The notes under the pieces were generated by a model. It searched no databases, was not told the origin of the DNA, and saw only the letters and a program-made list of their open reading frames with translations. From Phycisphaerae bacterium (GTDB taxonomy: Bacteria; Planctomycetota; Phycisphaerae; UBA1845), in the NCBI GenBank assembly GCA_029260165.1, contig JAJDDT010000042.1, positions 62,001-126,000 of the forward strand: a DNA stretch of 64,000 nt, in the 5' to 3' direction. The position numbers and the translations under genes were made by a program. Shown in pieces: positions 5,872 through 53,605 of the stretch (the first letter of the stretch is position 1; each line of letters starts with the position of its first letter).

Positions 5872-5969
5872 CAGCCCCCTGGCTGCAACCTGCGCGGGGT
5901 CGTCGTTGAATGATCGGGTGTTGTTGGATGAATAGCAGGGAACCCCCGCTCGAAGCGTGGAGATCAAAC

Positions 5970-8900
5970 ATGACAGAATCGATGATAAGAATTACCCCCG
6001 GAAACGATCGACGTTCGGTCATCGGACTGATCGTTCTGGCGCTCGTCTACGTTGGGTTGGCGGGGACGGTCCGCGCGGGCGAACCTGGCGAGGAGTCCCG
6101 AGTGTTTGCGGCTGCCTTCGGAAGCAGTCAACCCAACCCGGTGATGCAGGCCCGTGACAATCCGCGATCCGCCGGCGGTGCCAGGAATCGATCCACACGC
6201 AAACCTCGTTCCACTCCCAAACCCAAACCCACGACGCCGGGTCGTAATCGCGGGAAGCAGAATACGCCCGCGCCAAGTGCCAATGTTGAAAAGGTCAGGG
6301 GCACGATCAATCTCGAAGCCGAGGAATTGCTGAAACCGGCTGAGGAACGAAGTTACAACTTCAGTCTCGTGGACGGGACGTATGCGAATCTTGTTGAGAA
6401 TTTTGCGCGTATGTCCGGGTTGGGCGTGATTGGTGACGCACCACAAGGGCAGGTGTCGTTTGTGAGCACGCAGGAGATGGATTTTCGATCGGCGTTGAAT
6501 CGCGTGCGCATGCTCCTGTTCAAGTTCAGTCCGATCGAACCCTATTGGCTGATGTACGAAGAGGAACATCTGGAGGTGCTCCGAGTCAATGACGTATGGC
6601 GGGTGATTGATCAGGACAAGTACCTGTTCATGAATGTGGCGGATTTTCGAGCGGCGCAGAAAAAGGGTGATCTGTATACGACCGACCTGGCCATGGTTCT
6701 TTACACGCCGACGGATACGTCTGTTTCGGATTTCACCATGCTGCGTGATTTCATGCCGGACTATGTTCGTATCGCGCCGATGGGCGGTACCAACTCGATG
6801 GCTATCTTCGCGCTGGTCAGTGATATCGAAAAATACCTGTCGTTGATCAAGCTGTTTGAGGGGGCGGGCGAGGATCCACGTGTTCTTATAAAGCTCGCCG
6901 TGAACCATCTTATCCCGAGCGTTGCGGTCACGACGCTGAACACGCTGATGGACGACCTGCAGGGTGTGGGTGGTGCAAAGCGTCCTCGTGGCAGGGTGCA
7001 GGACCCGACGGCCAGTCTGCCGGGTGAGCAGACCGTGCTCTTTCCTGATGACAATCAGGGCGTGCTCATCGTTCGGGCGATTCCTCGCGTCATCAAGGAT
7101 ATCGAGGAGATGCTCGCGTTCATCGATGTTCAGTTGGACGCGGAATTATCACCGGTTGTTATTCCGATCAGGTACGCCAGGGTTGACGAGGTTCGCGATC
7201 AGATTCACAGTTTGATTTCGGCGAGTGGTGGTGTCGCCGGAAAAAGTTCCACGGCGAAGCCTCGGCGGAACAAAGGCGGCAAACGCGGGGGCAGCAGCGC
7301 TCCGATTGTGACCGAAGGCCTGCTGCTGCTGGCCAATTCCAGAACGAACGAATTGATCGTTCGGGGAACCGAGGATGAGGTGAGCAGGGTCCGCCGTTAC
7401 ATTCGCCTGTTCGATGTTCCGGCTGATTCCGACAAGCCCGTCATTGTTTCGCTACAGCATGTTTCCCCGGAAGATATCAACACCACGATCACGCAGATTG
7501 TCCAGGGGCAGCGGGGAAAACGGGCGGCTGCGGAGAGACCCTTCAATTGCTATCCGGAGCCTGTGTCGGGGGCTTTGATTCTCGTCGGTGCCAGGGAGGA
7601 TGTCGAAGCCGCCAGGGATTTGATTGCCATCATGGATGTCGCGGCTGCGACGCCGACCCTGCATGCTCATCGGCTCGAGAATGCGTCCCCGTCGGTTGTG
7701 ATGGATCTGATCACGATTCTGGACGCCCCGGGGGCACCCTCGCCCGGAGGCAAGCGCCCACCGCGGGGGAGGAAAGCCTCCGGCAGCACATGGTATGTCG
7801 ACAACACGACCAACACGATTTACATGATCTGCACGGATGACGAATGGAACGAAAAGTATTTCCCGGTCATCAAACAAATGGACGAGGATGCTGCCGAGAT
7901 TCCGAGTCATGTGCTGATCGAAGTGAAGAACCTTGCGAGCGATGAAGCCGTCAATATTCTCCGTGAGATTTTCGCACCAGGTGCCAAGGGAGCGAACGCG
8001 TTTCGAATCATCGCCGCAAGCAACGGTATTGTCGTGGACGGTGCCTCCCCTGCTAAAATCGAACATATCCGCGAGGTGTTGGCAGACATCGACATCGATT
8101 CGGAAGGTCGTCAAAGGCGAATTTTCACGCTTGAATTCGCTGATCCCAACGAGATCAAAACCGTCATCGACTCGGGGATTGTCGGGTCGGGTCGTGTGAG
8201 GCGTGTCAAGCGTCCGCAGCCCGGAGCCGTTCCGGGTGTTATCACCACGGTCGTTGGTGATCTGCTGATCGTGAGTGCCTCGGCTGACGAATTGCTCGAT
8301 ATTGAAGAGCTTGTGAAGCAGTTGGACGTTGTCAGTGAGTCCGAGCGGTCCATTCGTGTTTACAGCGTACCGCCTGGTTTCGATGTGGAATCGATTGCAA
8401 CCCAGTTGGAGCAGTTGATCCGAACCACCGCACCTTCGGGTGCCCGTCGCCGAACCAAGAACCCCGCCTCGCAAGGGACTGACGGTTCGATTCAAATCGT
8501 CTCCCAGCCGATTTCGAGAAAGATTCTGATCAGAGCGCCGGAGGGGGATTTCTCTATGATTGAGGAGTCCTACGCGCTGCTGACCGCCGACGCGGAAATC
8601 GAACCGGTCGAGATTCGTTTCTTCCCGGTCGAGCATGTTGATCCCGGCGACGTTGCCAACATGATCGAGCCTTTCCTTCAAATGCGTGCGGAATCGTTGA
8701 TCAAATCGGGCGAATTGCGCGTCGAACCCGATGTTAGCAAGAGAAGTGCCATCACGACGGTGTCCACGATTCGCGTGTCGGCTGATCTTCACGGTGACCG
8801 TGTGTTGGTTGCAGGTCCCACGTCAATCATCCTTGAAGCAGAGCAGTTGATTCGGGAGATCGATCAGCCACCTGCGTCCACGGACGATCGCATTCTGCGA

Positions 8901-11900
8901 ACCATCGAGTTGTCACGCACGACGCCCGATCAGATGATCACCACCATCAAAGCCATGATCAACAGTGGATCCTCGTCACCCCGCAAGCCTGATCGCCCGC
9001 GCCGCCCGAGAATCCGCAAGTCCAAGTCCAAGTCCAAATCCAGTGAATCCGGTTCCGCCCTTGCTTCGGCCACCTCTGATGGTCCTCTGGATGTGACCAT
9101 CGCGTCCGCCCCGGGTGGAAACGCCGTGATCGTCAGTGGCGATGCCCATGATGTGGACGAGGTCGAAGCCTGGATTCGCAAACTCGACGGCGAAGCCACC
9201 GGCAGCACCGTTCTGAAAATCTACAACATCGTCAACGCCGAGGTCGAGGAGATGGCTGACACCATTATGGCGTTGTGCGATTCCGGCTCGCCGGGCAAGT
9301 CAAAACCGAAGGATGACGATTTTTCTTTCTACGAGCCAAATCCCGTGCGCAAAGGCGCGGACATTACGCTGACAACAGACTACTGGAACAAACGCATCCT
9401 GGTTCGTGCGACGCCCGCCAAGATCTACGAAATCGATCAGATCATCGAGCTGTACGAGGGTAAGGAGGGCGAGGAGCCCGAATTCCGGGGCGGCGGCGAG
9501 AATGTCCCGCTGTTGTTTTTTGAACTCGCCCACGCCGATCCGTTCGACGCCGAGTATCAACTCGAGAGCATTCTCCCGGTGGTCTGGACCCATTCAGAGG
9601 AAATCCCCGACATCGACTACATCCCGGGTACGCAGTTGCTCGTCGTCAAAGCCAAGACCGAGTATCACTCCGAGATCAAGGGATACATCACAAAATACAT
9701 CGACAAGCTTGACGAAGAGGGAACGCCCGATCGGGTCGTCAAGTTCAAGGATATCACCGGTATGACCGCCAGTGACATGGCAGGGATACTTAAGTCTCGT
9801 CTGCCCCATCTCAATGTTGATTTGATTCAGATTGGCGAAGATATTCCGCAGTTGAAGCCCGTCGGTCCTTATAGTCCGCCCGCCGAGGCACAACCGCAAT
9901 GCGTCCTGCCGGCTTCGCTGGCCAAACTCCTGTCGGTCACCACGATTTCTCAGGCGCCATCCGGTCGCGACAATGAGAAGGAAAAAGCAGCGACAAAAAT
10001 CGCGCAAGCATTCGTTGCGCAAAGCGAAGGCGTCGGGTTGGACGGAGGAAACAGCGACACGAACAGCGATGCCACCGGCGAAGAGTCCGTCGCAGACGAG
10101 CCAATCACGATTCGATTCGACGACCGCACGGGTGTCATCGCCCTCGAGGGCGCGCCCAAAGACGTCGATGCCATTTCGGAACTGGTCGAGGAGTTGATCA
10201 AACAACGCGAATCCTCCTCACGCAAGATGGAGGTCCGGGTCTACCGTGTGCGCTACCGCGACGTGAATGAAGCCACCAACGTCCTCATGAACGCCCTTGG
10301 GATCCAGCGAGCAACCCAGGCCAACCGTGGAAACGCCGCAGCACAAGCCGCCCAGCTTCGTCGCCAAATGCAGCAAATGCAGCGAGCGCAGAAGGCTGCG
10401 GGGGGACGGCCGGGCGCTCAGCCCAACGCCGTGCCGCAACCGAATATCGACCCGCGCACGGGAATGCCCATGCAGGAGGAAAAAAAAGAGGATTCCAAAA
10501 AATCAGGCCTCGGTGACGTTCGCATCACGCCCGATCCCAAAAACCGCTTCATGATCATCACGGCTGCCACCGAGGATTTCCCGGTCATCGTCGAGTTGCT
10601 CGCGACCATCGACCGACCGTCCGAGGTCGACAAGAGTTTCAAAATCTACAAACTCACCAAGCTCATCGCGTCCGATGTCGAGGGACAACTAAAGGAACTG
10701 CTCGGCATCAGTGCGGCCAAAGCATCCACCCGCAGACCGACAGCCAACCCAGGCACGCGCAATCGTCGTGGCGGCAACAATCAAAACCGCGCCAATCAAC
10801 AGATAGAAGACGCCCTGATGCAATTCGCCAGCCTCGGTGCCAATGGCGGGACCATCGACGTTGCCTCGGACGTCACCGTCACCAGCAACCCATCAGCCAA
10901 CACGCTGCTCGTCAATGCCCCGGAACCGGTCCACGAAATCATCGCCGAATTCATCAAGGATCTCGAAGCGCAGGACATCCCCACCCTCGAAACCCGCACC
11001 TATCGGATGACTCATTCCGATGTCGCCGCCTCCGCAGAACAACTCACAAAAATGTTCAGTCAGCGCAAGGGCGATGCTGGTTATGATCCCAACGCGGTCA
11101 ACAAAGCCACCTTCACGGCGGACCCACGCACGAACACCCTGATTGTCCAGGCATTTGACACCGATTTCGACAAGATCGAGCCGCTGATCACCAAACTCGA
11201 CGAGGACATGGGTGACGACGCCGACGTCCTCACCTTCAAACTCGAATACGCCGACGCAACCCAGACCGCCCGAACACTCAACGAAGTCTATGGACAGGGC
11301 GGAGGTAAACGCGGTGCCAAGGGTGTGAAAATCGTCGGCGATCCGTCGTCAAACACGCTGTTTGTGACGGCTCCACAAAATCAGCGGGACGACATCTCCG
11401 CGCGCATCATCGAAATCGACGCCCAGGCCGCCGACGTCATCGAACCGAGAACGATTAAAATCGTCGCGGGCGATCCCGACAAGATCGCCCAGTCGCTCAA
11501 GACGGTCTTTACCAGCGGCGGCGGCAAGTCGGGCAAAGGGGCCATCACCATCGTCGGCGACAGCGTCGGCGGACAGGTGATCGTCTCCGCACCGGACGAC
11601 GTCTTCAACAAAATCGAGTCGCTGACCCGGAAAATGGACCAGTCTACCATCGGCGAAAAAGTCAACATGCGCGTGTTCAAACTCGAACACGCCCAGGCCG
11701 TCGAAGTCCATGGCCAGATCATGAACCTCGTCCGACAGATGGGTCAGCAACTCGGTCCACAGGCGCGTGAAATGGGGGTGTTCACGGCAGTCCCCGACGA
11801 ACGCTCCAACGCGATCCTGTGCATGGGCAGCCCGATTTCATTCGTGCTCGTCGAAAAAGCGATCAAGGAAGTGGACGTCCCACCCACGGACGCAACCCAG

Positions 11901-13715
11901 GTCGTCACCGCCATCTATCGCCTCGTCCACGCAGACGCAACGGAACTGGCCAGCAACATTACGCGCATCTTCACGGCCAAGCGAGGCACCGGCGTCGAAC
12001 CACCCAAGGCAGAAGCCAACCGCTCCAACAACATCCTCATCGTCCGAGGCACCGAATCGCAAATCAAACAAATCAACGAAGAGGTCATCAAGCCTGTCGA
12101 GGACAAAGCCTCCGGACACAACGTCATTCGCGAAATCGTTGCCCTCGAACATGCCGACGCAGCCGACATCGCCCGAATCCTCAACGAAAACATGAACAAG
12201 ATGAGCGGTGGGCAGCGCAAGGGTCAGCCAATCTCGGTGATCGCCAACGCGGCGCTCAATTCCATTGTCATCAACGGTGCCGAGTCGGACGTGACCGATC
12301 TCGTCACCCTTGCGAGTGATCTCGACAAGGAACCCTCGCACGCAACCGACCGCAGTGTCAGGAATTTCCCCCTCGCCCACACCAACCCGTGGGTGATCGC
12401 CGACGCGATCCGACAGATCTACCGACCCAAACGCGGACCCTCCAACCCGGCTGACGAAGTCGTCGCCATCGCCGAAGGAACCGCCATGGCGGTCATCGTC
12501 TCCGCCTCACAGAAAAACATGGCCAGGGTCACCGAGCTGATCGCAGAGCTTGACAAACCGGGCGCTTCGGACAGCGACGTTCACGTTGTTGAAATCAAAC
12601 ACGCCGACGCAGCCAGCGTTGCTCAAAGCCTGACCCAACTCTTCGTGCACGGCGGTGGAGGCAGAAATGTCCGCGGACAGTCCACGATTCAAATCACCAA
12701 CCCGAGAGGCAGCGACATGCTGCTGATCAAAGCCAATCAGACGGAACTCGACCGAATTCTCGCCGTGGTCGAGGACCTCGATCAATCGTCAGGCAATACC
12801 GACGAAATCAAGATGATCGTCCTGAAAAACACCGACGCCGACATGATGCAGCAAGCCATGGAAAACTACCTCCGCAAACCGGGTCAGCGCGGCGGGGAAC
12901 TCGTCGGCGACGTACGCATGACCGCCAACACCCAGAACAACACGCTCATGGTCTCCGGAGATCCCGAGGAAGTCGCCCGCATCGAGGGTATCATCAGCAA
13001 CCTGGACGTCGAAGTCGAAGGCGCTGCCAACGCACCACGCATCATCCAGCTCGAACACGCCCGCGCCTCCCAAATTCAACCAACGCTCGACGAAATGTTT
13101 GGTCAGGCCAGCGGTAAGGGAAAACGCGGCAGAAACAACAAGACCGAAGCACCGATCATCGTTGCAGATGACGCCAGCAACACGTTGTTGGTCCGTGCAA
13201 GGCCCACCGATTTCGCCATAGTTGAGGATCTCGTCGAAATGCTCGACAAAAAACCCGAAGAGGATCGGGAACCGATTCGAATTGTTTCCGTCGCTGAGGG
13301 TGTCAAGGCAGCCGACATGGCTGACCTCATTCAGTCCACCGTGAACGAAAGTGAGCGCATCCGTGCTGAACAAACCGGTGGCGACGCTGCCACCATCGTC
13401 GTCAGTGCGTACCCACGCGGGAACGGATTGATCCTGGCTGGTTCACCCGCACTCTTTGAAAATGCCACAAAACTGATCCGCGATCTCGAGACGATGGGTG
13501 TGACGGGCGGAAACAGCGTCCGAATCCTCAAGACGAAAAATATTTCTGCGAGCGAAATTCAGCGTTTACTCAACCAGGTTATTGACGAGAATGGTCGGTC
13601 AAGCGGAACGTCATCGGGCGTCCGCCGGTCGGGGGGTCGAAACAATCGATCGTCCGGTCGAGGCTCGAACACGCGGCGTCTGCCGCGACGAAACAGCCGG
13701 GGAGGGCGTCGTTAA
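5970..13715 (+). CDS. Giant secretin N-domain repeat protein without a secretin barrel
   Basis: A 2,581-aa predicted exported protein. ATG 5970 was chosen because GGAG lies 7 bases upstream and the protein then begins with a classical signal peptide (hydrophobic about 16-33, cut near VRAG); ATG 5910 lacks both. After a low-complexity stretch there is an N0/STN-like domain (about residues 90-180). About 25 repeats of 70-110 aa follow, each with hydrophobic-x-x-ADA-type helices, an NTLIVxA-type strand and a closing (I/L)xxLD helix: the secretin N1/N2 fold (Secretin_N). The 26th repeat is cut in half, followed by a Ser/Arg/Gly tail. No C-terminal secretin beta-barrel is present. Gly/Lys/Arg-rich loops interrupt many repeats. 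It probably works with the true secretin encoded next. Confidence 0.85.
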   Translation: MTESMIRITPGNDRRSVIGLIVLALVYVGLAGTVRAGEPGEESRVFAAAFGSSQPNPVMQARDNPRSAGGARNRSTRKPRSTPKPKPTTPGRNRGKQNTPAPSANVEKVRGTINLEAEELLKPAEERSYNFSLVDGTYANLVENFARMSGLGVIGDAPQGQVSFVSTQEMDFRSALNRVRMLLFKFSPIEPYWLMYEEEHLEVLRVNDVWRVIDQDKYLFMNVADFRAAQKKGDLYTTDLAMVLYTPTDTSVSDFTMLRDFMPDYVRIAPMGGTNSMAIFALVSDIEKYLSLIKLFEGAGEDPRVLIKLAVNHLIPSVAVTTLNTLMDDLQGVGGAKRPRGRVQDPTASLPGEQTVLFPDDNQGVLIVRAIPRVIKDIEEMLAFIDVQLDAELSPVVIPIRYARVDEVRDQIHSLISASGGVAGKSSTAKPRRNKGGKRGGSSAPIVTEGLLLLANSRTNELIVRGTEDEVSRVRRYIRLFDVPADSDKPVIVSLQHVSPEDINTTITQIVQGQRGKRAAAERPFNCYPEPVSGALILVGAREDVEAARDLIAIMDVAAATPTLHAHRLENASPSVVMDLITILDAPGAPSPGGKRPPRGRKASGSTWYVDNTTNTIYMICTDDEWNEKYFPVIKQMDEDAAEIPSHVLIEVKNLASDEAVNILREIFAPGAKGANAFRIIAASNGIVVDGASPAKIEHIREVLADIDIDSEGRQRRIFTLEFADPNEIKTVIDSGIVGSGRVRRVKRPQPGAVPGVITTVVGDLLIVSASADELLDIEELVKQLDVVSESERSIRVYSVPPGFDVESIATQLEQLIRTTAPSGARRRTKNPASQGTDGSIQIVSQPISRKILIRAPEGDFSMIEESYALLTADAEIEPVEIRFFPVEHVDPGDVANMIEPFLQMRAESLIKSGELRVEPDVSKRSAITTVSTIRVSADLHGDRVLVAGPTSIILEAEQLIREIDQPPASTDDRILRTIELSRTTPDQMITTIKAMINSGSSSPRKPDRPRRPRIRKSKSKSKSSESGSALASATSDGPLDVTIASAPGGNAVIVSGDAHDVDEVEAWIRKLDGEATGSTVLKIYNIVNAEVEEMADTIMALCDSGSPGKSKPKDDDFSFYEPNPVRKGADITLTTDYWNKRILVRATPAKIYEIDQIIELYEGKEGEEPEFRGGGENVPLLFFELAHADPFDAEYQLESILPVVWTHSEEIPDIDYIPGTQLLVVKAKTEYHSEIKGYITKYIDKLDEEGTPDRVVKFKDITGMTASDMAGILKSRLPHLNVDLIQIGEDIPQLKPVGPYSPPAEAQPQCVLPASLAKLLSVTTISQAPSGRDNEKEKAATKIAQAFVAQSEGVGLDGGNSDTNSDATGEESVADEPITIRFDDRTGVIALEGAPKDVDAISELVEELIKQRESSSRKMEVRVYRVRYRDVNEATNVLMNALGIQRATQANRGNAAAQAAQLRRQMQQMQRAQKAAGGRPGAQPNAVPQPNIDPRTGMPMQEEKKEDSKKSGLGDVRITPDPKNRFMIITAATEDFPVIVELLATIDRPSEVDKSFKIYKLTKLIASDVEGQLKELLGISAAKASTRRPTANPGTRNRRGGNNQNRANQQIEDALMQFASLGANGGTIDVASDVTVTSNPSANTLLVNAPEPVHEIIAEFIKDLEAQDIPTLETRTYRMTHSDVAASAEQLTKMFSQRKGDAGYDPNAVNKATFTADPRTNTLIVQAFDTDFDKIEPLITKLDEDMGDDADVLTFKLEYADATQTARTLNEVYGQGGGKRGAKGVKIVGDPSSNTLFVTAPQNQRDDISARIIEIDAQAADVIEPRTIKIVAGDPDKIAQSLKTVFTSGGGKSGKGAITIVGDSVGGQVIVSAPDDVFNKIESLTRKMDQSTIGEKVNMRVFKLEHAQAVEVHGQIMNLVRQMGQQLGPQAREMGVFTAVPDERSNAILCMGSPISFVLVEKAIKEVDVPPTDATQVVTAIYRLVHADATELASNITRIFTAKRGTGVEPPKAEANRSNNILIVRGTESQIKQINEEVIKPVEDKASGHNVIREIVALEHADAADIARILNENMNKMSGGQRKGQPISVIANAALNSIVINGAESDVTDLVTLASDLDKEPSHATDRSVRNFPLAHTNPWVIADAIRQIYRPKRGPSNPADEVVAIAEGTAMAVIVSASQKNMARVTELIAELDKPGASDSDVHVVEIKHADAASVAQSLTQLFVHGGGGRNVRGQSTIQITNPRGSDMLLIKANQTELDRILAVVEDLDQSSGNTDEIKMIVLKNTDADMMQQAMENYLRKPGQRGGELVGDVRMTANTQNNTLMVSGDPEEVARIEGIISNLDVEVEGAANAPRIIQLEHARASQIQPTLDEMFGQASGKGKRGRNNKTEAPIIVADDASNTLLVRARPTDFAIVEDLVEMLDKKPEEDREPIRIVSVAEGVKAADMADLIQSTVNESERIRAEQTGGDAATIVVSAYPRGNGLILAGSPALFENATKLIRDLETMGVTGGNSVRILKTKNISASEIQRLLNQVIDENGRSSGTSSGVRRSGGRNNRSSGRGSNTRRLPRRNSRGGRR

Positions 13716-13839: not shown

Positions 13840-16800
13840 ATGAAATCACGGTCAACGCGCATTTTCCCCACACGCTGTACCGTCGTCTCGGCCCTTGCGG
13901 TCGCGATCCTGCTGCCGGTCATCACCGCCGCCCAGCAAAAGACGAAATCGCCATCCGACCAGGAAACCGAAGCCATCCGCCGCATGGTCGCCGCCGGTCA
14001 GAAACAGCAGACCGCCGACGCGCCGCTTGATCTGAAGTTATCCGGAAACGACGTGACTGTCGAGACGCTTCCCACCGGTGAAATCGTGCTCATGGGCAAC
14101 GACGCCGACCTCGACATCCTCGAATCCTTCATCAGTATGCTCGATCGTCAGATTCCCGAAAAAGACATCGTCATCCACACCCTCGCAAAAGCAAGCGCCG
14201 AACAGGTCGCCCAAAAACTCGAATCCATCATCCCCGAGGTCTTTCCAGGCATCCAGGAACTGCCCGATCAAAGCGTTTCAGTCCAGGCCCTCTCATCCTC
14301 CGTCCTGCTCATCGCCGCCCCGGCTGAACGCATCGATCGCATCATCCAGATCATCGAAGCCATCGACGAGGTCGAAGCCTCCCTGCAGGATTTTGAAGTC
14401 ATGCGATTTCAGATCAAGTACCGAAAAGCCGGCGAAGTCGCGACCCAGCTCGAAGAGGTCGTCAAGAAAATCCAGACCAAGCAGGGTGCGGACGCAGCCG
14501 AGGAAGTAACCTTCGACGTCAACGACGCAGACAACAGCATCACCATCTTCGGCCCCGAAACACTCAGGGATCAGATTCAGAAAATCATCGACACCATCGA
14601 CGTCGAACCCGCCGAAGGTTTCAGCCACCTCAAACTCGTCATGTACCCGCTGCTCAACGTACAGGCTGACGACATGAAATCGGTGCTCGAGGAAATGCTC
14701 AAATCTGCCGAAAGCGGGCAGGATGTGCAGGAAGCCATCCGCCGCCTCAGCGTTATCAAGCGGGGTGCCGACGGTTCACAGTCCGAGCTTCAACCCCTCG
14801 ACCTCGACAAACCGCTTCGCGTGTTGGCTGACAAGGGCACCAATTCGCTCATCATCGCCACGATCGAGAAGAACATCGAACCCCTTGGCGAGATCGTCGC
14901 TCTGCTCGACGGTGTGCCCATCGCGCACGAAATGGGACTGGAAATCTTCCCGCTCAAATTCGCCGACGCCGACGCGCTCAAGGAACTCATGGAGCAGATG
15001 TTCGACGACGGCAAGAAACTGCCCGAGCGCGCTCCAGGCGGCGATCGCACCGAAGCCATCCCGCCCGACTCGGTCGGTTCCGCTTTCATGCACAACATCA
15101 ACATCAAAGCCGACAAACGCACCAACATCCTGATCGTCTCCGGTCGTCCGGGGCAACTCGCCCTCGCCCGCACCGTGGTTGAGGAACTCGACGTCCCGAT
15201 GTCAGCCGCCAGATTCCCGCTCAGGCTGCTTTTCTGTGGTCAGAATGTGGACTCAGGTCGCGTCAAAGCCATCGTCGAGGAACTATTCACCAGGCGAAAG
15301 GAAACCCTCGAAAAGACCGATGCAGGCGAGCTAGCCGTTGCCCGCGAGGAGGTGTTCATCGCCGTCGATTCGCGCAGCAACGCACTGATCGTCTCCGCCA
15401 GTGAATCGAACTACGACGAAATCCGGAGCGTCGTCGATGAGTTGAACGTCGCCATCGATCGCCTCGTCGATAACATCCGAATCATCAATTGCGAAAACAC
15501 GCACGCCGCCGACCTCGCCACCAAAGTCGACGAGCTTTGGGAGCGAAAATCGCGTCTGCGAAGCCAGGACGAACTGCCGGAAGACAAACCGATCCTCGTC
15601 GCAGACACACGCTCCAACGCACTGATCGTCGCCTCTAGCAACGAGGATTTCGCCGAAATCAGTGATCTGGTCGCCAAGCTCGAAGCCCAACCGCTCTCAC
15701 CGATCGCCGAAATCCGCCTGCTCACGTTGCAAAACAACGACGCAAGCCAGGTCTCCGACATGCTCAAGCAGCTCTTCGAGGAACGCGCCCAGCAACGCCT
15801 CGCCCAGGGGCAGGAAGAGAACCCCGCCGACCGGGTCGCCGTTGCAGCCGACCCTGCCACCAACACCATGCTCATCGCCTCCAGCAAGGAAAACTACAAC
15901 GAGATGATGCGCATCATCGACGCCATCGACGTCGAACCCGACATGGACGGCGTGGTCAATATCTACGTCCTGCAAAACGCCGAAGCCCAGCCCGTCGCCG
16001 ACAAGATTCAGGAACTGTTCGACCAGGGTCTCTACAGTCCAATGGCCGGCATCGGTGACAACGCCATCGTCGAGGAACGCAAGAAAGTCGCCATCATCGC
16101 CGACGTCCGATCCAACGCGATCATCGTCAGCGCCTCCAAGCCGAATCTTTCCATCGTCCAAAGCCTGATCGAACGCATGGACGGTGAAATCTCCGACCTC
16201 TTCGCCGAAAACTACAAACTCATCCCACTGCTCCACGCCGACGCCGTCAAACTCGTCGGTATGCTCGACAAGCTCTTCGACGGCCAGGCATCCGCCGCCT
16301 CGGATCAGGACATCTATCCCAAACCGACCATCATCGCCGACGCCCGCAGCAACACGCTCATCATCACAGGCACCCGCGATGCCCTCGGACGCTGCGGCGA
16401 CCTCGTCAGCCAGCTTGACCGACCCGCTGGCCCGCCAACCTCCGTCTTCGAGGTCTACACGCTCGCCCACGGGTCCGCCGCCAAGCTCGCCACCCGCATG
16501 CAGGAACTTTTCGACCAGCGATCCGAAGGTCAGGACGACGCAGCAACCCCCATATTCATTCAGGCGGACGAAACCTCCAACAGCCTCATCGCCAGCGCAG
16601 CCCGCGACGACCACGTCCTCATCGTCGGTCTGCTCGAATTGCTCGACAAACCATCCAACATCGCAAAACAGTTCCACATTTTCCCGCTGCACGCAGGACG
16701 CGCCGAAGCAATCGCCGAAACCATGGACCAACTCTTCCAGCAACAGGCGGAAGGCTCCAGCGGTCGAGCCGACGCGATCGCCGTCCAGGCAGACCCACGC

Positions 16801-18789
16801 AGCAACTCGCTGGTCGTCTGGGCATCCGCCTCCGAGATGGACAACATCGCGACCATCGTCGAAAAACTCGACACCGCCCGACCCGCCGTCGAAATGATGA
16901 TGCGCGTCGTCCGACTCAAGCAAGCCCTCGCCGAGGACTTCGCAGAATCCTTCGAGGAAACACTTATGGGCGGTCAGACCAGCGGCGGTGATGACCAGGA
17001 AGCCATCATCGTCTCCTTCATCCAGAAAAACGATGACGGCACCGAGGTTCTCCGCAAGCTCCTCCGCCAGGACATCACCATCAACCCGGACCCACGAACC
17101 AACTCCCTCATGGTGATGGCCCCTGCGGAAAGCATGGATATGCTCGAAGCCCTTATCCTGGACTTCGACAGCATCGCACCCGCCGCCGCCGAAATCAGCT
17201 TCTACCAGCTCGCCAACGCAGACGCGGAAGAGGTCAAGGAAAGACTCGACGAACTATTCAGCACCGAGGAACAGGACAGCGACGACAATCTTGAGCAGCG
17301 AATTGTTTTCGGTGGCGAGGGAGGTGGAACGGTCCAGGTCAGCGGAGACGCTGGTGGAAACCGGCAGATGATTCGGTTCACCGCCGATCGTCGAACCAAT
17401 TCCATCATCGCCGCAGGCAACCGCGTCGATCTCGACATGGCTGAGGAACTCATCCGCATGCTCGATTCCCAGGACATCGACGAACGTATTCAGGAGGTCT
17501 ATCGCCCCAGACACATCACCGCCTCCGTCATGGCCGAAAACCTGACGCAGTTTGTCGAAGCCGAAAACGATGTGCTTGGCGAGCTTGACGACGAAAGCTC
17601 TGTCCGCCGCCGCGCCGAAAAACAAATCAGCGTCGTCGGTGATGAGGACACGAACCTCCTTCTCGTCGGTACAAGCCCCAAATACTACGACGACGTCAAC
17701 GAACTCATCCGCCAGATCGACCGACCCGAACCACAGGTCATGATCTCCGTGCTCATCGCCGAGGTTTCCGTCGACGATCGCTTTGAACTCGGCGTTGAAT
17801 TCGCCGCACAGGATTTGCACTTCTCACAAAACGCAACCACAGGACGCAACGGTGTTATCCAGGGCAACGGATTCGACGTCATCGCAGGAACCGATATCGG
17901 AGCCGCCGGCGCGGGATTTGGCGGACTTTCACTCACCATCTCCGGTGAGGATTTCGCCTTCCTTTTCCGCGCTCTCGACTCCCAGGGCCAACTCGAGGTC
18001 CTCTCCCGTCCGACCCTCCTCGTCCAGAACAACGCCACTGGCAACATCACCATCGGTGACCGCGTGCCCATCGTTTCGGGCACCACCAGCGCGGGAGGTC
18101 AAAGCTCAACCCAAATTCAGTACGAAGAAGTCGGCATCATTCTCGACGTCACTCCGCACATCAATCCCGATGGCTATGTGAACCTCGAGATCGCCCCCGA
18201 AATCTCCCAGATCTCCAACCAGGCGCTGCAGGTCTCCGAAGGTTTGGTCGCGACCGTCTTCTCCCAGCGAACCGCCGAAACCACCGTCACCGTGCGCGAC
18301 GGCGAAACCGTCATCCTCGGCGGCCTTATCACCGAAACCGTCGAGGATGCCGAAACCAAAGCGCCAATCCTCGGCGACATCCCATTTCTCGGAGACTTCT
18401 TCAAAACGACCACGAAAATCTCAAACAAGACCGAATTGCTCATCGTTCTCACCGTCGATGTCGTCCGCGACGAATACGAACTCCGCGAAGCCTCCGAACA
18501 CGAACGCGACCTGGCTGAGTTCCTCCCGGATCGCGTCAAACGACATCGCCTCATGCAGGGCATGCGCATTAAACCGGACGACGACGTGTTCGGGCCCGTT
18601 GAAGACATCGAAAACGGCATGCCCGCAGAGCCTGCAACAACCCCCAAACGCGACAAGGGTATCTACGGCCCAAGCCTCAAAACCTACGGACCTGCCACCC
18701 CGACCGCAGCCAAAAAGGTCAACCAAAACCCGGAACACGCCGCCGCAAGGCGGTATGGTCCCAGGCTTGTCCGTGACGATTCCAAATGA
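13840..18789 (+). CDS. gspD: Giant GspD-like secretin with about 14 N domains
   Basis: A 1,649-aa outer-membrane secretin. AAGGAAG lies upstream of ATG 13840, and residues 1-31 form a signal peptide (ILLPVITAAQ). Residues about 60-1295 hold about 14 Secretin_N-type repeats, each with an N(A/S/T)LI(I/V) strand. Residues about 1296-1535 are a canonical secretin domain: QVMISVLIAEV, SRPTLLVQNN, VPIVSG, YEEVGIILDVTPHI, VRDGETVILGGLI and PILGDIPFLGDFF. E. coli-type GspD has four N domains, so this gate would carry a very long periplasmic vestibule. The tail (about 1560-1649) is basic and Pro-rich and may help outer-membrane targeting. It is co-directional with the giant partner 124 bp upstream and overlaps the following lipoprotein gene by four bases. 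Confidence 0.93.
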   Translation: MKSRSTRIFPTRCTVVSALAVAILLPVITAAQQKTKSPSDQETEAIRRMVAAGQKQQTADAPLDLKLSGNDVTVETLPTGEIVLMGNDADLDILESFISMLDRQIPEKDIVIHTLAKASAEQVAQKLESIIPEVFPGIQELPDQSVSVQALSSSVLLIAAPAERIDRIIQIIEAIDEVEASLQDFEVMRFQIKYRKAGEVATQLEEVVKKIQTKQGADAAEEVTFDVNDADNSITIFGPETLRDQIQKIIDTIDVEPAEGFSHLKLVMYPLLNVQADDMKSVLEEMLKSAESGQDVQEAIRRLSVIKRGADGSQSELQPLDLDKPLRVLADKGTNSLIIATIEKNIEPLGEIVALLDGVPIAHEMGLEIFPLKFADADALKELMEQMFDDGKKLPERAPGGDRTEAIPPDSVGSAFMHNINIKADKRTNILIVSGRPGQLALARTVVEELDVPMSAARFPLRLLFCGQNVDSGRVKAIVEELFTRRKETLEKTDAGELAVAREEVFIAVDSRSNALIVSASESNYDEIRSVVDELNVAIDRLVDNIRIINCENTHAADLATKVDELWERKSRLRSQDELPEDKPILVADTRSNALIVASSNEDFAEISDLVAKLEAQPLSPIAEIRLLTLQNNDASQVSDMLKQLFEERAQQRLAQGQEENPADRVAVAADPATNTMLIASSKENYNEMMRIIDAIDVEPDMDGVVNIYVLQNAEAQPVADKIQELFDQGLYSPMAGIGDNAIVEERKKVAIIADVRSNAIIVSASKPNLSIVQSLIERMDGEISDLFAENYKLIPLLHADAVKLVGMLDKLFDGQASAASDQDIYPKPTIIADARSNTLIITGTRDALGRCGDLVSQLDRPAGPPTSVFEVYTLAHGSAAKLATRMQELFDQRSEGQDDAATPIFIQADETSNSLIASAARDDHVLIVGLLELLDKPSNIAKQFHIFPLHAGRAEAIAETMDQLFQQQAEGSSGRADAIAVQADPRSNSLVVWASASEMDNIATIVEKLDTARPAVEMMMRVVRLKQALAEDFAESFEETLMGGQTSGGDDQEAIIVSFIQKNDDGTEVLRKLLRQDITINPDPRTNSLMVMAPAESMDMLEALILDFDSIAPAAAEISFYQLANADAEEVKERLDELFSTEEQDSDDNLEQRIVFGGEGGGTVQVSGDAGGNRQMIRFTADRRTNSIIAAGNRVDLDMAEELIRMLDSQDIDERIQEVYRPRHITASVMAENLTQFVEAENDVLGELDDESSVRRRAEKQISVVGDEDTNLLLVGTSPKYYDDVNELIRQIDRPEPQVMISVLIAEVSVDDRFELGVEFAAQDLHFSQNATTGRNGVIQGNGFDVIAGTDIGAAGAGFGGLSLTISGEDFAFLFRALDSQGQLEVLSRPTLLVQNNATGNITIGDRVPIVSGTTSAGGQSSTQIQYEEVGIILDVTPHINPDGYVNLEIAPEISQISNQALQVSEGLVATVFSQRTAETTVTVRDGETVILGGLITETVEDAETKAPILGDIPFLGDFFKTTTKISNKTELLIVLTVDVVRDEYELREASEHERDLAEFLPDRVKRHRLMQGMRIKPDDDVFGPVEDIENGMPAEPATTPKRDKGIYGPSLKTYGPATPTAAKKVNQNPEHAAARRYGPRLVRDDSK

Positions 18790-50618: not shown

Positions 50619-51806
50619 TCAGATGTCCACCCCCGCCACGTCGCGCCGCCACAACTTCCCGACCGCACCAAACACCCCACGCAACCACCGACCCACCAAC
50701 GCACACCACGTCCAACCAACATGACGTCCACCATACGACGCCGCCAAATGCGCCGCATCGGGTAATATCACCGCCCGCAGATAACCAAACCTGAAACCCA
50801 GCCCCGGCGTACACAGCATATCCACAACCGTTCGACGCACCGGATGGGCTGCGTCCTCCGGCGATTGTCGCACCGCCAACCGATCCCGCCACGACACGCG
50901 CTCGTCCGCCAACCTCCGCCGCACGTCGTCAGGAATCACGCAGCCAACCTGCGACTCGACCCATTCAATTCCGACTCGTGCCGCATAGATCAATCGCCAC
51001 ACCCGCAACCGCTCAACGAACATCGACCAATCAATCTGATCCCCAAACCAATCCACAAACCGACGCACATCCATCGCCCAAATCAATCGTCCACCACCAT
51101 GAAACGACGCATGACACAACAGATGAATCAACATGTTTGTCGCCGACGGCACGCACATTACGGTGCCACCCATTGGGACGCCAACCACATCCCCCATCAA
51201 CGCCCCGTCAGGCACCGTTCGCGCATAACGCAACGGCCGCCACGGTCGCACATGCACATCCAACCGAACCCCGTTGGACCCGCCGCCCACATAATCCCGC
51301 TCATAATGAAACCGTGGGAAAAAATCCGCCCGCAACAAATTACGCCCAGGCTCATACCCCAACCGCCGCAACAACCCATCCGCCCGATCCGCATCGGCCG
51401 GACGAATCAACAAATCCACGTCCGTCATCGGACGCAACGACAAATCGTCATACAACACCCCCAACAGCGCCGCCCCCTTCAACACCACCAGCCCCACGTC
51501 CGCCTCCGCAAACGCCGTCACAATCCGCTCCAGCCGCGTCAACCGATGACGATTCAACCCCGCCGTCTGATCAGCCGTCGCAACCAACTCCCGCTGCACC
51601 TCATCAGGCAACGCAATCCCACGCTCCCGAACCGCCTCCCAAACCAACCCAGCCACACCCTCAACCTGTGCACACGACACCAACCGACCCCATCCGCGAC
51701 CATCGTCCACCGCAGGCCAATCCCCGTCCCCGAGCAATAGCCGTCCCAGTCGCGTCACCAGTGACGCATCAGCAGCCAACACCGTTTTTGAAGAATTCGA
51801 TCTCAT
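50619..51806 (-). CDS. Uncharacterised nucleotidyltransferase (NTP_transf_5-like)
   Basis: A 395-aa protein of the large uncharacterised nucleotidyltransferase family. The signature VVLKGAALL followed by LRPMTDVDLLIRPAD carries the nucleotidyltransferase aspartates (TDVDL). The C-terminal half is helical with many Trp/Arg/Val and no second domain that I recognise. Its ATG overlaps the kinase stop by four bases; it is the last gene of the four-gene cassette. Members often travel with HprK-related kinases and PqqD-like proteins. Confidence 0.87.
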   Translation of the reverse strand: MRSNSSKTVLAADASLVTRLGRLLLGDGDWPAVDDGRGWGRLVSCAQVEGVAGLVWEAVRERGIALPDEVQRELVATADQTAGLNRHRLTRLERIVTAFAEADVGLVVLKGAALLGVLYDDLSLRPMTDVDLLIRPADADRADGLLRRLGYEPGRNLLRADFFPRFHYERDYVGGGSNGVRLDVHVRPWRPLRYARTVPDGALMGDVVGVPMGGTVMCVPSATNMLIHLLCHASFHGGGRLIWAMDVRRFVDWFGDQIDWSMFVERLRVWRLIYAARVGIEWVESQVGCVIPDDVRRRLADERVSWRDRLAVRQSPEDAAHPVRRTVVDMLCTPGLGFRFGYLRAVILPDAAHLAASYGGRHVGWTWCALVGRWLRGVFGAVGKLWRRDVAGVDI

Positions 51807-52738
51807 GACATGACAGCCGACCGCACCAGATCGACCGTTTCATCCAACTCACCCGCCGCCAACTCATACACCCGCGCATCACGAACAACATCCGCCATGA
51901 TCCGCACGCCGGCCGACCGAAATTTCGCAAAATTGAACGACACCTCATTCAACCGCAGCACTGCTTCCGCCCGCGAAATCTCCGTCAACCGCGCCCGCTG
52001 ACCTTCCGCATATTTGGGGAATATCACAAATCGAACCGGACATCGCCCACCGATCCGGTCCCCGTTCAGCTCGAAAGGCTTCACAAACGTCACCCGTCCC
52101 TTTTGCCCCTTCTGATAGTCTCGCCGGCGCGACGTTTGCAATCCCATCGCGTCGATTACCGGAAATGAACCCTCCTTCAAACACAACGCCTTCGGATACG
52201 CCCGCAGTTTTAGATCATCCGGATCAATCAACGCAAACTCGTCCGACAGATACCGCCAACCGCTCCGCACCAAACCAGCCGTCAGCGTCGTCTTCCCACT
52301 GCCCGGACTCGCCGGCAGAATCACACCCTGACCATCCACCTCCACCACGCCCGCGTGAATCTGATAAAACCGCGGGTGATACAACATGATGTGCCAGTTG
52401 ATCGCCCACTCGATGTGCGGCAGCAGCGACGGATTGTTCCAAACCGTGAATCGATGCTCCCCGTCCGCCCAAACCTCATAACGACGTCGCTTCATTCGCC
52501 CCAATCGCGTCGGCTTGACCTCAACGAGGATGGCATCACGCGTCGGTTCTGACATCCGACAGTGCTCGTACAATTCGCAAAAATCCCGCATCGCCGGACG
52601 ATATGGACACTTCAGCGACACCGCGATCACACCAATTTGAAAATGAGCGATCTCGCCTCCCCCATCCCCGAAAAAATCGCGATCAGACCATTCCGCCACA
52701 CACGCCAACTGACCCGACTGTCCGCCCAACCTCGTCAC
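51803..52738 (-). CDS. HprK-related kinase A
   Basis: A 311-aa P-loop protein related to HPr kinase/phosphorylase. Walker A PASPGSGKTTLTAGL (about residues 142-156) is followed by GWRYLSDEFALID, in the position where HprK has its second acidic motif. AINWHIMLYHPRFYQIHAGVVE just before the P-loop is typical of HprK-related kinases in exosortase and HPr-rel-A loci. There is no HPr or PTS gene here, so the substrate is not HPr as such. The start is GTG 52738, overlapping the PqqD-like stop. Confidence 0.88.
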   Translation of the reverse strand: MTRLGGQSGQLACVAEWSDRDFFGDGGGEIAHFQIGVIAVSLKCPYRPAMRDFCELYEHCRMSEPTRDAILVEVKPTRLGRMKRRRYEVWADGEHRFTVWNNPSLLPHIEWAINWHIMLYHPRFYQIHAGVVEVDGQGVILPASPGSGKTTLTAGLVRSGWRYLSDEFALIDPDDLKLRAYPKALCLKEGSFPVIDAMGLQTSRRRDYQKGQKGRVTFVKPFELNGDRIGGRCPVRFVIFPKYAEGQRARLTEISRAEAVLRLNEVSFNFAKFRSAGVRIMADVVRDARVYELAAGELDETVDLVRSAVMS

Positions 52739-53061
52739 GCCGACTCGCTTTCGCCAACACGTTCAACCAAACCCGATTCCCACATCGCCTTGATCGCCGT
52801 GGGCACATCACGTCTCGCCACGTCCACGGGTACGTCAAACCGCCCAACCATTCGCGTGACAATCTCATCAACACCCGTCACGCCGTCGCAGCCACACCAG
52901 ACGAAATACGCCGACCGATTCAAACGACACGTCGTGTTAAACACCAGATCGTAAAGCACCGCTTCGCCATCGATTTCGTGCACATCAACATCATGGCGAC
53001 GTACGAAGCGATTCAATGCACCCACCGAATCACCAGACGGATTGTCCACGTTTGCGATCAT
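52735..53061 (-). CDS. PqqD-like peptide chaperone, HPr-rel-A system type
   Basis: A 108-aa protein with a PqqD fold. PqqD-type proteins bind precursor peptides and hand them to modifying enzymes. Residues about 25-100 show the pattern VLYDLVFNTTCRLNRSAYFVW...VTGVDEIVTRM...VARRDVPTAIKAM, typical of PqqD-like families with a central winged helix. Its stop and start overlap the neighbours by four bases on both sides. By analogy it would present the 70-aa peptide encoded upstream. No radical SAM enzyme is adjacent, so the partner is likely the kinase. Confidence 0.8.
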   Translation of the reverse strand: MIANVDNPSGDSVGALNRFVRRHDVDVHEIDGEAVLYDLVFNTTCRLNRSAYFVWCGCDGVTGVDEIVTRMVGRFDVPVDVARRDVPTAIKAMWESGLVERVGESESA

Positions 53062-53270
53062 GACGTGGCACTCACCCCACTGGCTGCCAACGCTTCCGAA
53101 GGCCTGAACAAGTGAATCAGCGGCGCCGAGTAGACCAAAAGCTTCGTCGCACCCCCCATCACCGCCCGCCGGGAGTGCACCGCCTCAATGTCCGCGCCAA
53201 CGGTCTCCGCATCGGACCGCTCGCGCCCATCAACCGCGCGAAACTCGTCTTGTCCCTGCTTGTCGGGCAT
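53058..53270 (-). CDS. 70-aa leader-like peptide, candidate substrate of the cassette
   Basis: A short protein starting at ATG 53270, with GAGGTGGAG 5-9 bases upstream. It has an acidic, polar N-half (1-33), then RR at 34-35, a hydrophobic stretch (about 37-55, AVMGGATKLLVYSAPLIHLF) and an ALA-type end near residues 60-62, leaving a short tail ASGVSATS. It overlaps the PqqD-like gene by four bases (ATGA). The arrangement suits a peptide precursor or a small Tat-like exported protein. Both readings are inference; I recognise no named family. Confidence 0.6.
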   Translation of the reverse strand: MPDKQGQDEFRAVDGRERSDAETVGADIEAVHSRRAVMGGATKLLVYSAPLIHLFRPSEALAASGVSATS

Positions 53271-53425
53271 ACAGACTCCACCTCAATCTGTGACGTCGAT
53301 TATCAGCCACAGAGGTTTATCGGTCGCGTTTTGAGCCGAGTTGACTACCGGTCTTGCAAGGACCGATAACCCACAAGAAATGAAAATCCACCCCAACCGC
53401 AGGCGTACCCACCGCCCGCAGTTCG

Positions 53426-53605
53426 TCAGTGCGTCCGGTGCTTGCCGTGATGATGGACGCGGTGCAGGATCAGCACGGCAACAGCCGGCAGGAACAACAG
53501 ATTCCCCACCGGATCCGCCCGAACCAGGCCAATCGAACCCATTGCGTTCGTCGGCACAGCCACCACGCACAAGAACACCAAAATCCCAATCGCCAATCGT
53601 AACAT
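53426..53605 (-). CDS. Small membrane peptide with His-rich basic tail
   Basis: A 59-aa predicted membrane peptide: hydrophobic 1-19, a short linker with GSIGLVRADP, a second hydrophobic segment at about 34-48 and the tail HRVHHHGKHRTH. GGAGG six bases upstream of ATG 53605 decides this start over the longer frame to 53701. It lies 155 bases upstream of the 70-aa peptide in the same direction, so it may belong to that cassette. The His cluster could bind metal. No family recognised. Confidence 0.55.
   Translation of the reverse strand: MLRLAIGILVFLCVVAVPTNAMGSIGLVRADPVGNLLFLPAVAVLILHRVHHHGKHRTH

Follow-up and report, generated by a model that had tools for sequence, protein, structure and literature searches.

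A compact operon in a Phycisphaerae genome, probably for a modified and exported peptide with an LPP-like recognition motif in a Tat-like leader

Results

A four-gene cassette and its predicted precursor peptide

We analysed a 64,000-nucleotide stretch of contig JAJDDT010000042.1 (positions 62,001 to 126,000 of the forward strand) from the Phycisphaerae bacterium assembly GCA_029260165.1, called the window here. Four overlapping genes on its minus strand probably constitute a compact operon (A-B-K-N) for a ribosomally synthesized and post-translationally modified peptide (RiPP) that is exported. The cassette is best read as a RiPP system like that of the linear polyphosphorylated peptides (LPP) of Bacillota but lacking LppS, LppD and a cyclase, in which the motif for the RiPP recognition element (RRE) lies inside a signal peptide resembling those of the twin-arginine translocation (Tat) pathway. 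The open reading frames (ORFs) encode, in order, a 70-aa peptide that matches no family (A, 53058..53270, with its ATG at 53270), a PqqD-like discrete RRE of 108 aa (B, 52735..53061; PF05402, 3.9e-11), an HprK-like kinase of 311 aa with a GTG start (K, 51803..52738), and an NTP_transf_5 nucleotidyltransferase-like protein of 395 aa containing KGxAL...RPMTDVD (N, 50619..51806; PF14907, 1.3e-46). Each junction overlaps by 4 bp (ATGA at 53058-53061, GTGA at 52735-52738 and ATGA at 51803-51806), confirming a preliminary description of this DNA, and a Shine-Dalgarno-like GAGGTGGAG is found at 53276-53284 on the minus strand, upstream of the precursor ATG.

The same description had given the peptide a hydrophobic, leader-like end. 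A hydrophobic stretch is indeed present, but it is not terminal; it occupies residues 45-55, after a twin Arg at residues 34-35, and beyond it come an A-x-A site (residues 60-62) and an eight-residue tail. Residues 34-62 (53085..53171, minus strand) form a combined leader and signal-peptide-like segment, RRAVMGGATKLLVYSAPLIHLFRPSEALA, and residues 63-70 (53061..53084, minus strand) the predicted core ASGVSATS, of which residues 2, 5 and 8 are Ser, the last being C-terminal. This is the layout of a Tat-type signal ([ST]RRxFLK-type motif, hydrophobic segment, A-x-A), the window peptide reading SRRAVM with V replacing F. Within the segment, YSAPLI (53115..53132, minus strand) is a candidate RRE-binding motif of the YxxPxI form, which places Y at -16, P at -13 and I at -11 from the predicted cleavage site.

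The leader recurs at kinase loci across the class

Of 392 genomes sampled across the phylum, 37 have the kinase, and of 397 sampled across the class, 66 do; a hand count on the class rows puts it in 43 of 46 sampled members of the family to which the window belongs. Sixty further stretches were retrieved and annotated by script, and 63 class loci were counted. A leader-bearing short ORF or ORF end was located at 53 of these. Six of the ten loci without a precursor (L101, L115, L116, L122, L138 and L148) are truncated by the end of their contig at the expected place, and no recognisable precursor was detected at the other four of the 63 (L103, L111, L124 and L142). Conservation of the short gene beside PqqD-like and kinase genes elsewhere was the point on which the original proposal of a peptide modification system hung, and the proposal survives.

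The precursors carry two types of core. Ser-type cores are mostly of 5-9 residues (ASGVSATS in the window; ASPSS, GSGMSPTS and SGGSGVS in relatives), and Cys-type cores are mostly of 30-75 residues with knottin-like spacing, for example SNHSCYPAGxxC...CC...C. Since a plain RR...YxxP regular expression was only about twice as common near the kinase as elsewhere, we adopted leader profiles with cross-training. A profile built from Ser-type precursors only was tested on Cys-type loci, and conversely, in order to limit circularity. The cross-trained profiles ranked the precursor first among about 250-270 open segments at all 23 Cys-type and all 29 Ser-type loci (52/52).

Precursors had been collected with a pattern that required RR and P; neither the A-x-A spacing nor a Ser in the core was required. 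Among the 52 class precursors, S or T precedes RR in 40, and F, V, L, I or M stands two residues past RR in 51. The leader proline lies 15-17 residues beyond RR and is followed two residues later, at -11, by V, I or L in every case. Three residues before the proline, at -16, 46 of the 52 have an aromatic residue (Y in 32, F in 13 and W in 1), and A-x-[AG] is exactly 13 residues from the proline (P-13) in 45. The consensus leader is thus [ST]RRxF ... (Y/F)-16 xx P-13 x (V/I)-11 ... AxA, and a Ser occurs within core positions 1-4 of all 52 peptides. These sequence comparisons strongly support the assignment of A to B and K as a kinase-substrate pairing.

Gene fusions and a disulfide-forming branch

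A VKOR-DsbA gene (PF07884 + PF01323) adjoins 18 of the 23 Cys-type precursors and none of the 29 Ser-type precursors, an association that fits a core which ends up outside the cytoplasm. Such loci make up a branch of the system in which disulfides are formed and the cores are knottin-like. VKOR-DsbA genes were noted beside or fused to PqqD at L111:7245-9167, L114:4060-5943 and L120:7486-8886, with Cys-rich precursors only. When core type was mapped on the kinase tree, the Ser-type label required 5 changes, compared with 22 for shuffled labels; as judged from these sequences, the type of core follows the lineage of the kinase, and shared ancestry contributes to this.

At four loci (L133, L136, L149 and L151) the kinase ORF continues in frame into an RR...YxxP...A-x-A...Cys-rich precursor, and the linker between kinase and precursor in L151 contains no ATG, GTG or TTG. 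The four form one clade in the kinase tree (support 92/90), so that a single fusion event suffices to account for them. The PqqD domain of L112 continues into a precursor of the Cys type, and L111 and L114 each have a fusion of VKOR-DsbA with PqqD. The fusions of kinase, PqqD and VKOR-DsbA place precursor, RRE, kinase and oxidase in a single pathway. Together with the leader conservation and the cross-trained profiles, the in-frame fusions give good genomic support to the earlier suggestion that the 70-aa peptide is the substrate of a peptide modification system. Natural kinase-substrate fusions are also ready-made test proteins.

Conservation within the operon is highest from the twin arginine of the peptide onward

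The four-gene order, which the preliminary description had proposed to seek in other genomes, recurs with identical 4-bp overlaps in a metagenome-assembled genome (MAG) of the same genus (MAG IP29b_bin.25, contig JANQQK010000035.1; locus L065/L096). A contig scan with a single kinase sequence as query gave one locus. Between the window and L065, the 40 codons at and after the twin Arg show 90% identity, with a nonsynonymous divergence (dN) of 0.062, a synonymous divergence (dS) of 1.03 and a dN/dS of about 0.06, and the 28 codons that precede the RR part show 39% identity and a dN of 0.71. The identities of the enzymes are 60% for PqqD, 77% for the kinase and 66% for the nucleotidyltransferase. 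On these figures the half of the peptide from RR to its end is the best-kept stretch of the operon, and it is under strong purifying selection.

The RRE and the kinase

A profile of 22 PqqDs matched TfuB1 (6jx3, 5.5e-13), TbiB1 (5v1u, 1.3e-12) and LppB (9x8z, 2.1e-10), and in this search of solved structures the lasso RREs and LppB outranked true PqqDs. With the window PqqD as a single query, neither a solved structure nor a plasmid was matched. The AlphaFold2 model of B (pLDDT 85.5) matched the TbiB1-leader complex 5v1v with a TMt of 0.84. By sequence profile and by predicted fold, B is an RRE of the lasso/LPP type.

Residues H128, K149 (in the P-loop GSGK) and D166 of the kinase are invariant and can be aligned to HPr kinase. 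The kinase scored 192.3 bits against TIGR04352 (HprK_rel_A), 7.7 bits under the cut-off of 200, and the window PqqD gave no match to TIGR04353. The label 'HPr-rel-A type' given to the cassette at the outset was therefore right in placing the kinase near TIGR04352, but the kinase falls below that model's cut-off and the PqqD has no match to its companion; LPP RiPPs are closer.

Upstream element and surrounding genes

A promoter-like element, AACTC-N10-GCGACCGATAA, lies at 53317..53342 on the minus strand, 46 bases ahead of the precursor ATG. It has a single exact copy in the whole genome, is exact in seven of the seven nearest cassettes and occurs in a looser form, CCGATA, in others. Its sequence resembles a promoter of the extracytoplasmic function (ECF) sigma type. 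Further upstream of the cassette, at about 53425-53605 (minus strand), we noted a small ORF, MLRLAIGILVFLCVVAVPTNAMGSIGLVRADPVGNLLFLPAVAVLILHRVHHHGKHRTH, which is kept in L065 as MLRITLSIVV...LGLVRADPVGNLLFLPAFAVLIMHHVHHHGRRRAH and whose product is probably a membrane protein. The AsmA-like, Fic, ClC and radical SAM genes that neighbour the cassette in the window are outside it. Elsewhere in the window there are two very long ORFs in tandem, 5910-13715 (2601 aa) and 13840-18789 (1649 aa).

Discussion

Proposed pathway

We propose that B would bind the 70-aa precursor through YSAPLI, within the hydrophobic part of the twin-arginine signal-like leader, and present it to K, which would phosphorylate a Ser of the core. 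Phosphorylation of the core is suggested by analogy with PadeK, ThcoK, PsmK and LppK. Candidate sites are Ser64 (core position +2), the analogue of S3 of LppA, which is phosphorylated on S3 only (PMC13381572), and the C-terminal Ser70, corresponding to the paeninodin site; a C-terminal Ser is found in 24 of 31 Cys-poor peptides. By analogy with PsmN, which attaches hexoses to phosphoserine according to the review PMC9266682, N may then add a further group, probably onto the phosphate. LppN produced no visible product (PMC13381572).

Once B departs, the leader would engage the Tat (or Sec) machinery, and the housekeeping signal peptidase I would cut after A62 to leave a linear, modified peptide of eight residues outside the inner membrane. 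The window genome has a gene for TatC and one for signal peptidase I (S26), the latter on a contig other than that of the cassette. Export by Tat or Sec with cleavage by signal peptidase I at A-x-A is thus the route we infer. Tentatively, and with rather less confidence than in the operon itself, we suggest that the RRE may double as a chaperone of the Tat signal, covering YxxP until kinase and nucleotidyltransferase have finished, so that only the completed phosphopeptide is exported and then cut by an ordinary signal peptidase. An RRE seated on the signal peptide would, we reason, solve the problem of premature export, which has been raised for bufferins as RiPPs with a signal peptide (PMC12452194).

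Points against the proposal and other explanations

Several observations weigh against this pathway. The window peptide matches neither of the Tat profiles TIGR01409 and PF10518, and TIGR01409 matches only 3 of 54 precursors. Where precursor and enzyme are fused, the RR segment is internal and not N-terminal, so that a classic Tat signal by itself cannot account for export. Neither a SipW-like LppS peptidase among the neighbours in the window or the recurrent neighbours in relatives, nor an MsbA-like LppD exporter beside the window cassette, was found. An AlphaFold2 model of a natural PqqD-precursor fusion, made from an alignment of PqqDs alone, had a good RRE with a disordered leader, and no docking was seen. 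The RR and P columns of the precursor alignment were partly built in by the collection pattern, and 6 of the 52 precursors have no aromatic residue at -16. Finally, Cys-type precursors do not end in Ser, and the C-terminal phosphosite therefore cannot be universal.

The rarity of matches to Tat profile models and the internal position of the segment in kinase and PqqD fusions would both suit a hydrophobic segment that serves only as an RRE leader and never as an export signal, the peptide being modified in the cytoplasm, cut there by another protease and either acting there or leaving through an unlinked ATP-binding cassette (ABC) exporter. LPP leaders in Bacillota, which are cleaved by an RRE-dependent peptidase and whose peptides are exported by an ABC pump (PMC13381572), provide a precedent. 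We nevertheless consider this unlikely, because [ST]RRx[FVLIM] sits a constant 28-30 residues ahead of A-x-[AG] in 52 peptides, which is the textbook layout of a signal peptide, because the extracytoplasmic VKOR-DsbA disulfide system accompanies Cys-type cores, and because cassettes of Vibrio, Sphingomonas and Leisingera also begin with an RR-leader gene.

The phosphopeptide could also be a carrier or anchor that N or an adjacent glycosyltransferase joins to a surface polysaccharide, an idea that is compatible with the pathway proposed above. In about 16 loci (for example, L119:770-4309) N is followed downstream by glycosyltransferase genes, LPP and paeninodin clusters are located in polysaccharide loci (PMC13381572), and the hexosylation of phosphoserine by PsmN points the same way. 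The window cassette, however, has no adjacent glycosyltransferase, its neighbours being an AsmA-like gene and a Fic gene, and we regard the carrier role as doubtful. Independently of that role, the downstream glycosyltransferases are a possible source of a sugar on the peptide.

We think it improbable that the pair is a signalling device in which an exported or membrane-bound peptide controls the kinase, serving as a sensor and not as a product. The presence of the kinase in nearly all genomes of the family (43/46) is more like that of a housekeeping function than of a patchy natural product, and HprK itself is a regulatory kinase. On the other side, paeninodin, pseudomycoidin and LPP clusters have a lasso B1-type RRE and an NTP_transf_5 protein as partners in biosynthesis, and a core that varies from 5 to 75 residues behind a fixed leader, as in the 52 precursors, is the usual RiPP pattern. 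A lasso peptide cluster whose cyclase and protease are encoded at other places in the genome is so improbable that we rejected it: although B, K and N are common to paeninodin-type lasso clusters and seven Asn-synthase-like places occur on other contigs, the genome has no B2 protease (PF13471), no cyclase stands beside the window cassette or among the recurrent neighbours, and a core of eight residues (5-9 in many relatives) is too short for a ring and a tail.

Comparison with known systems

Our limited literature search returned no RiPPs with Tat leaders and no HprK/PqqD RiPPs of planctomycetes. Bufferins and other MNIO-modified RiPPs (PMC12452194, PMC12636315) share with the cassette a precursor leader that serves as an export signal, which the modifying complex is proposed to mask until the peptide has been modified; they differ in their MNIO enzymes and Cys chemistry, in Sec or signal peptidase II (SPII) signals in place of RR, and in having no kinase.

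The HPr-rel-A system (TIGR04352, TIGR04353) likewise has a kinase, a PqqD and a nucleotidyltransferase in a row, although the window proteins miss the cut-offs of both models, the kinase narrowly. Its proteobacterial first genes encode 71-270 aa, against 70 aa here. An RR leader was seen on the first gene of HprK-related cassettes on plasmids of Vibrio, Sphingomonas and Leisingera (three examples only), and by hand count the leader proline of the Vibrio cassette is also at -13; a further plasmid search for HPr-rel-A cassettes added almost nothing. The present analysis gives HprK/PqqD/nucleotidyltransferase cassettes a testable substrate, in which leader and export signal are combined. If the RRE does act as a chaperone of the signal peptide, the cassettes would represent a RiPP class without a peptidase or transporter of its own, whose exported products would be phospho(glyco)peptides 5-9 residues long, and would link the HPr-rel-A cassettes of Proteobacteria to LPP RiPPs.

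With the paeninodin and pseudomycoidin lasso peptides the cassette shares an HprK-type kinase (PadeK, ThcoK and PsmK there), a nucleotidyltransferase (PsmN) and a PqqD-like B1. According to the review PMC9266682, the C-terminal Ser is the acceptor of those kinases, and Ser-type cores here also have a C-terminal Ser. Those clusters differ in possessing a macrolactam cyclase and a B2 protease, whereas a linear product is expected here, and the paeninodin-like PbaA leader has a W/Y motif at -15/-12, unlike the leaders described above. The predicted eight-residue product is small enough for its structure to be obtained easily by mass spectrometry (MS) once expressed.

LPP RiPPs were described in 2026 and stated to be confined to Bacillota (PMC13381572). 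The lpp cluster of Paenibacillus alginolyticus has, like the window cassette, a discrete RRE, an HprK-like kinase and an NTP transferase with no cyclase. Its precursor LppA, for which cleavage was determined experimentally, has Y-16, P-13 and V-11 (PMC13381572), and the leaders share Y-16/P-13/(V/I)-11. The core Ser is at position 3 in LPP and at positions 1-4 here. The agreement with LppA in three leader positions and the core Ser, across phyla, is the main ground for the LPP-like assignment. The Y-16/P-13 layout was also counted by hand in other planctomycetes (L037, L038, L042 and L047). We noted separately, beside HprK-like kinases of further planctomycetes (L054:9540-9788, L060:9205-9327 and L064:8837-9004), a different short precursor, KKLPVYEAPEVITYTDEEIFEKLGPAHTG..., whose leader has Y..P.V without RR and which perhaps belongs to another RiPP.

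The LPP leader is cut by an enzyme of the signal-peptidase type, and here an A-x-A site is present; the SipW-like LppS and the MsbA-like LppD of LPP have no counterpart beside the window cassette. Only YxxPx[VI] is common to the two leaders, so that the LPP consensus YxxPxVLxHQxIxFETxxS does not hold in full, and where LPP has HQxIxFETxxS the leaders here have a twin-arginine signal motif and A-x-A. The cores are often of 5-9 residues, or Cys-rich with VKOR-DsbA, unlike those of LPP. Lacking LppS, LppD and the full consensus, the cassette works like LPP but is not filed as LPP. Its distribution differs as well: LPP is patchy in Bacillota, and the LPP-type recognition geometry now extends to Planctomycetota, where the kinase is near-universal in one family, in the manner of a gene with a basic role.

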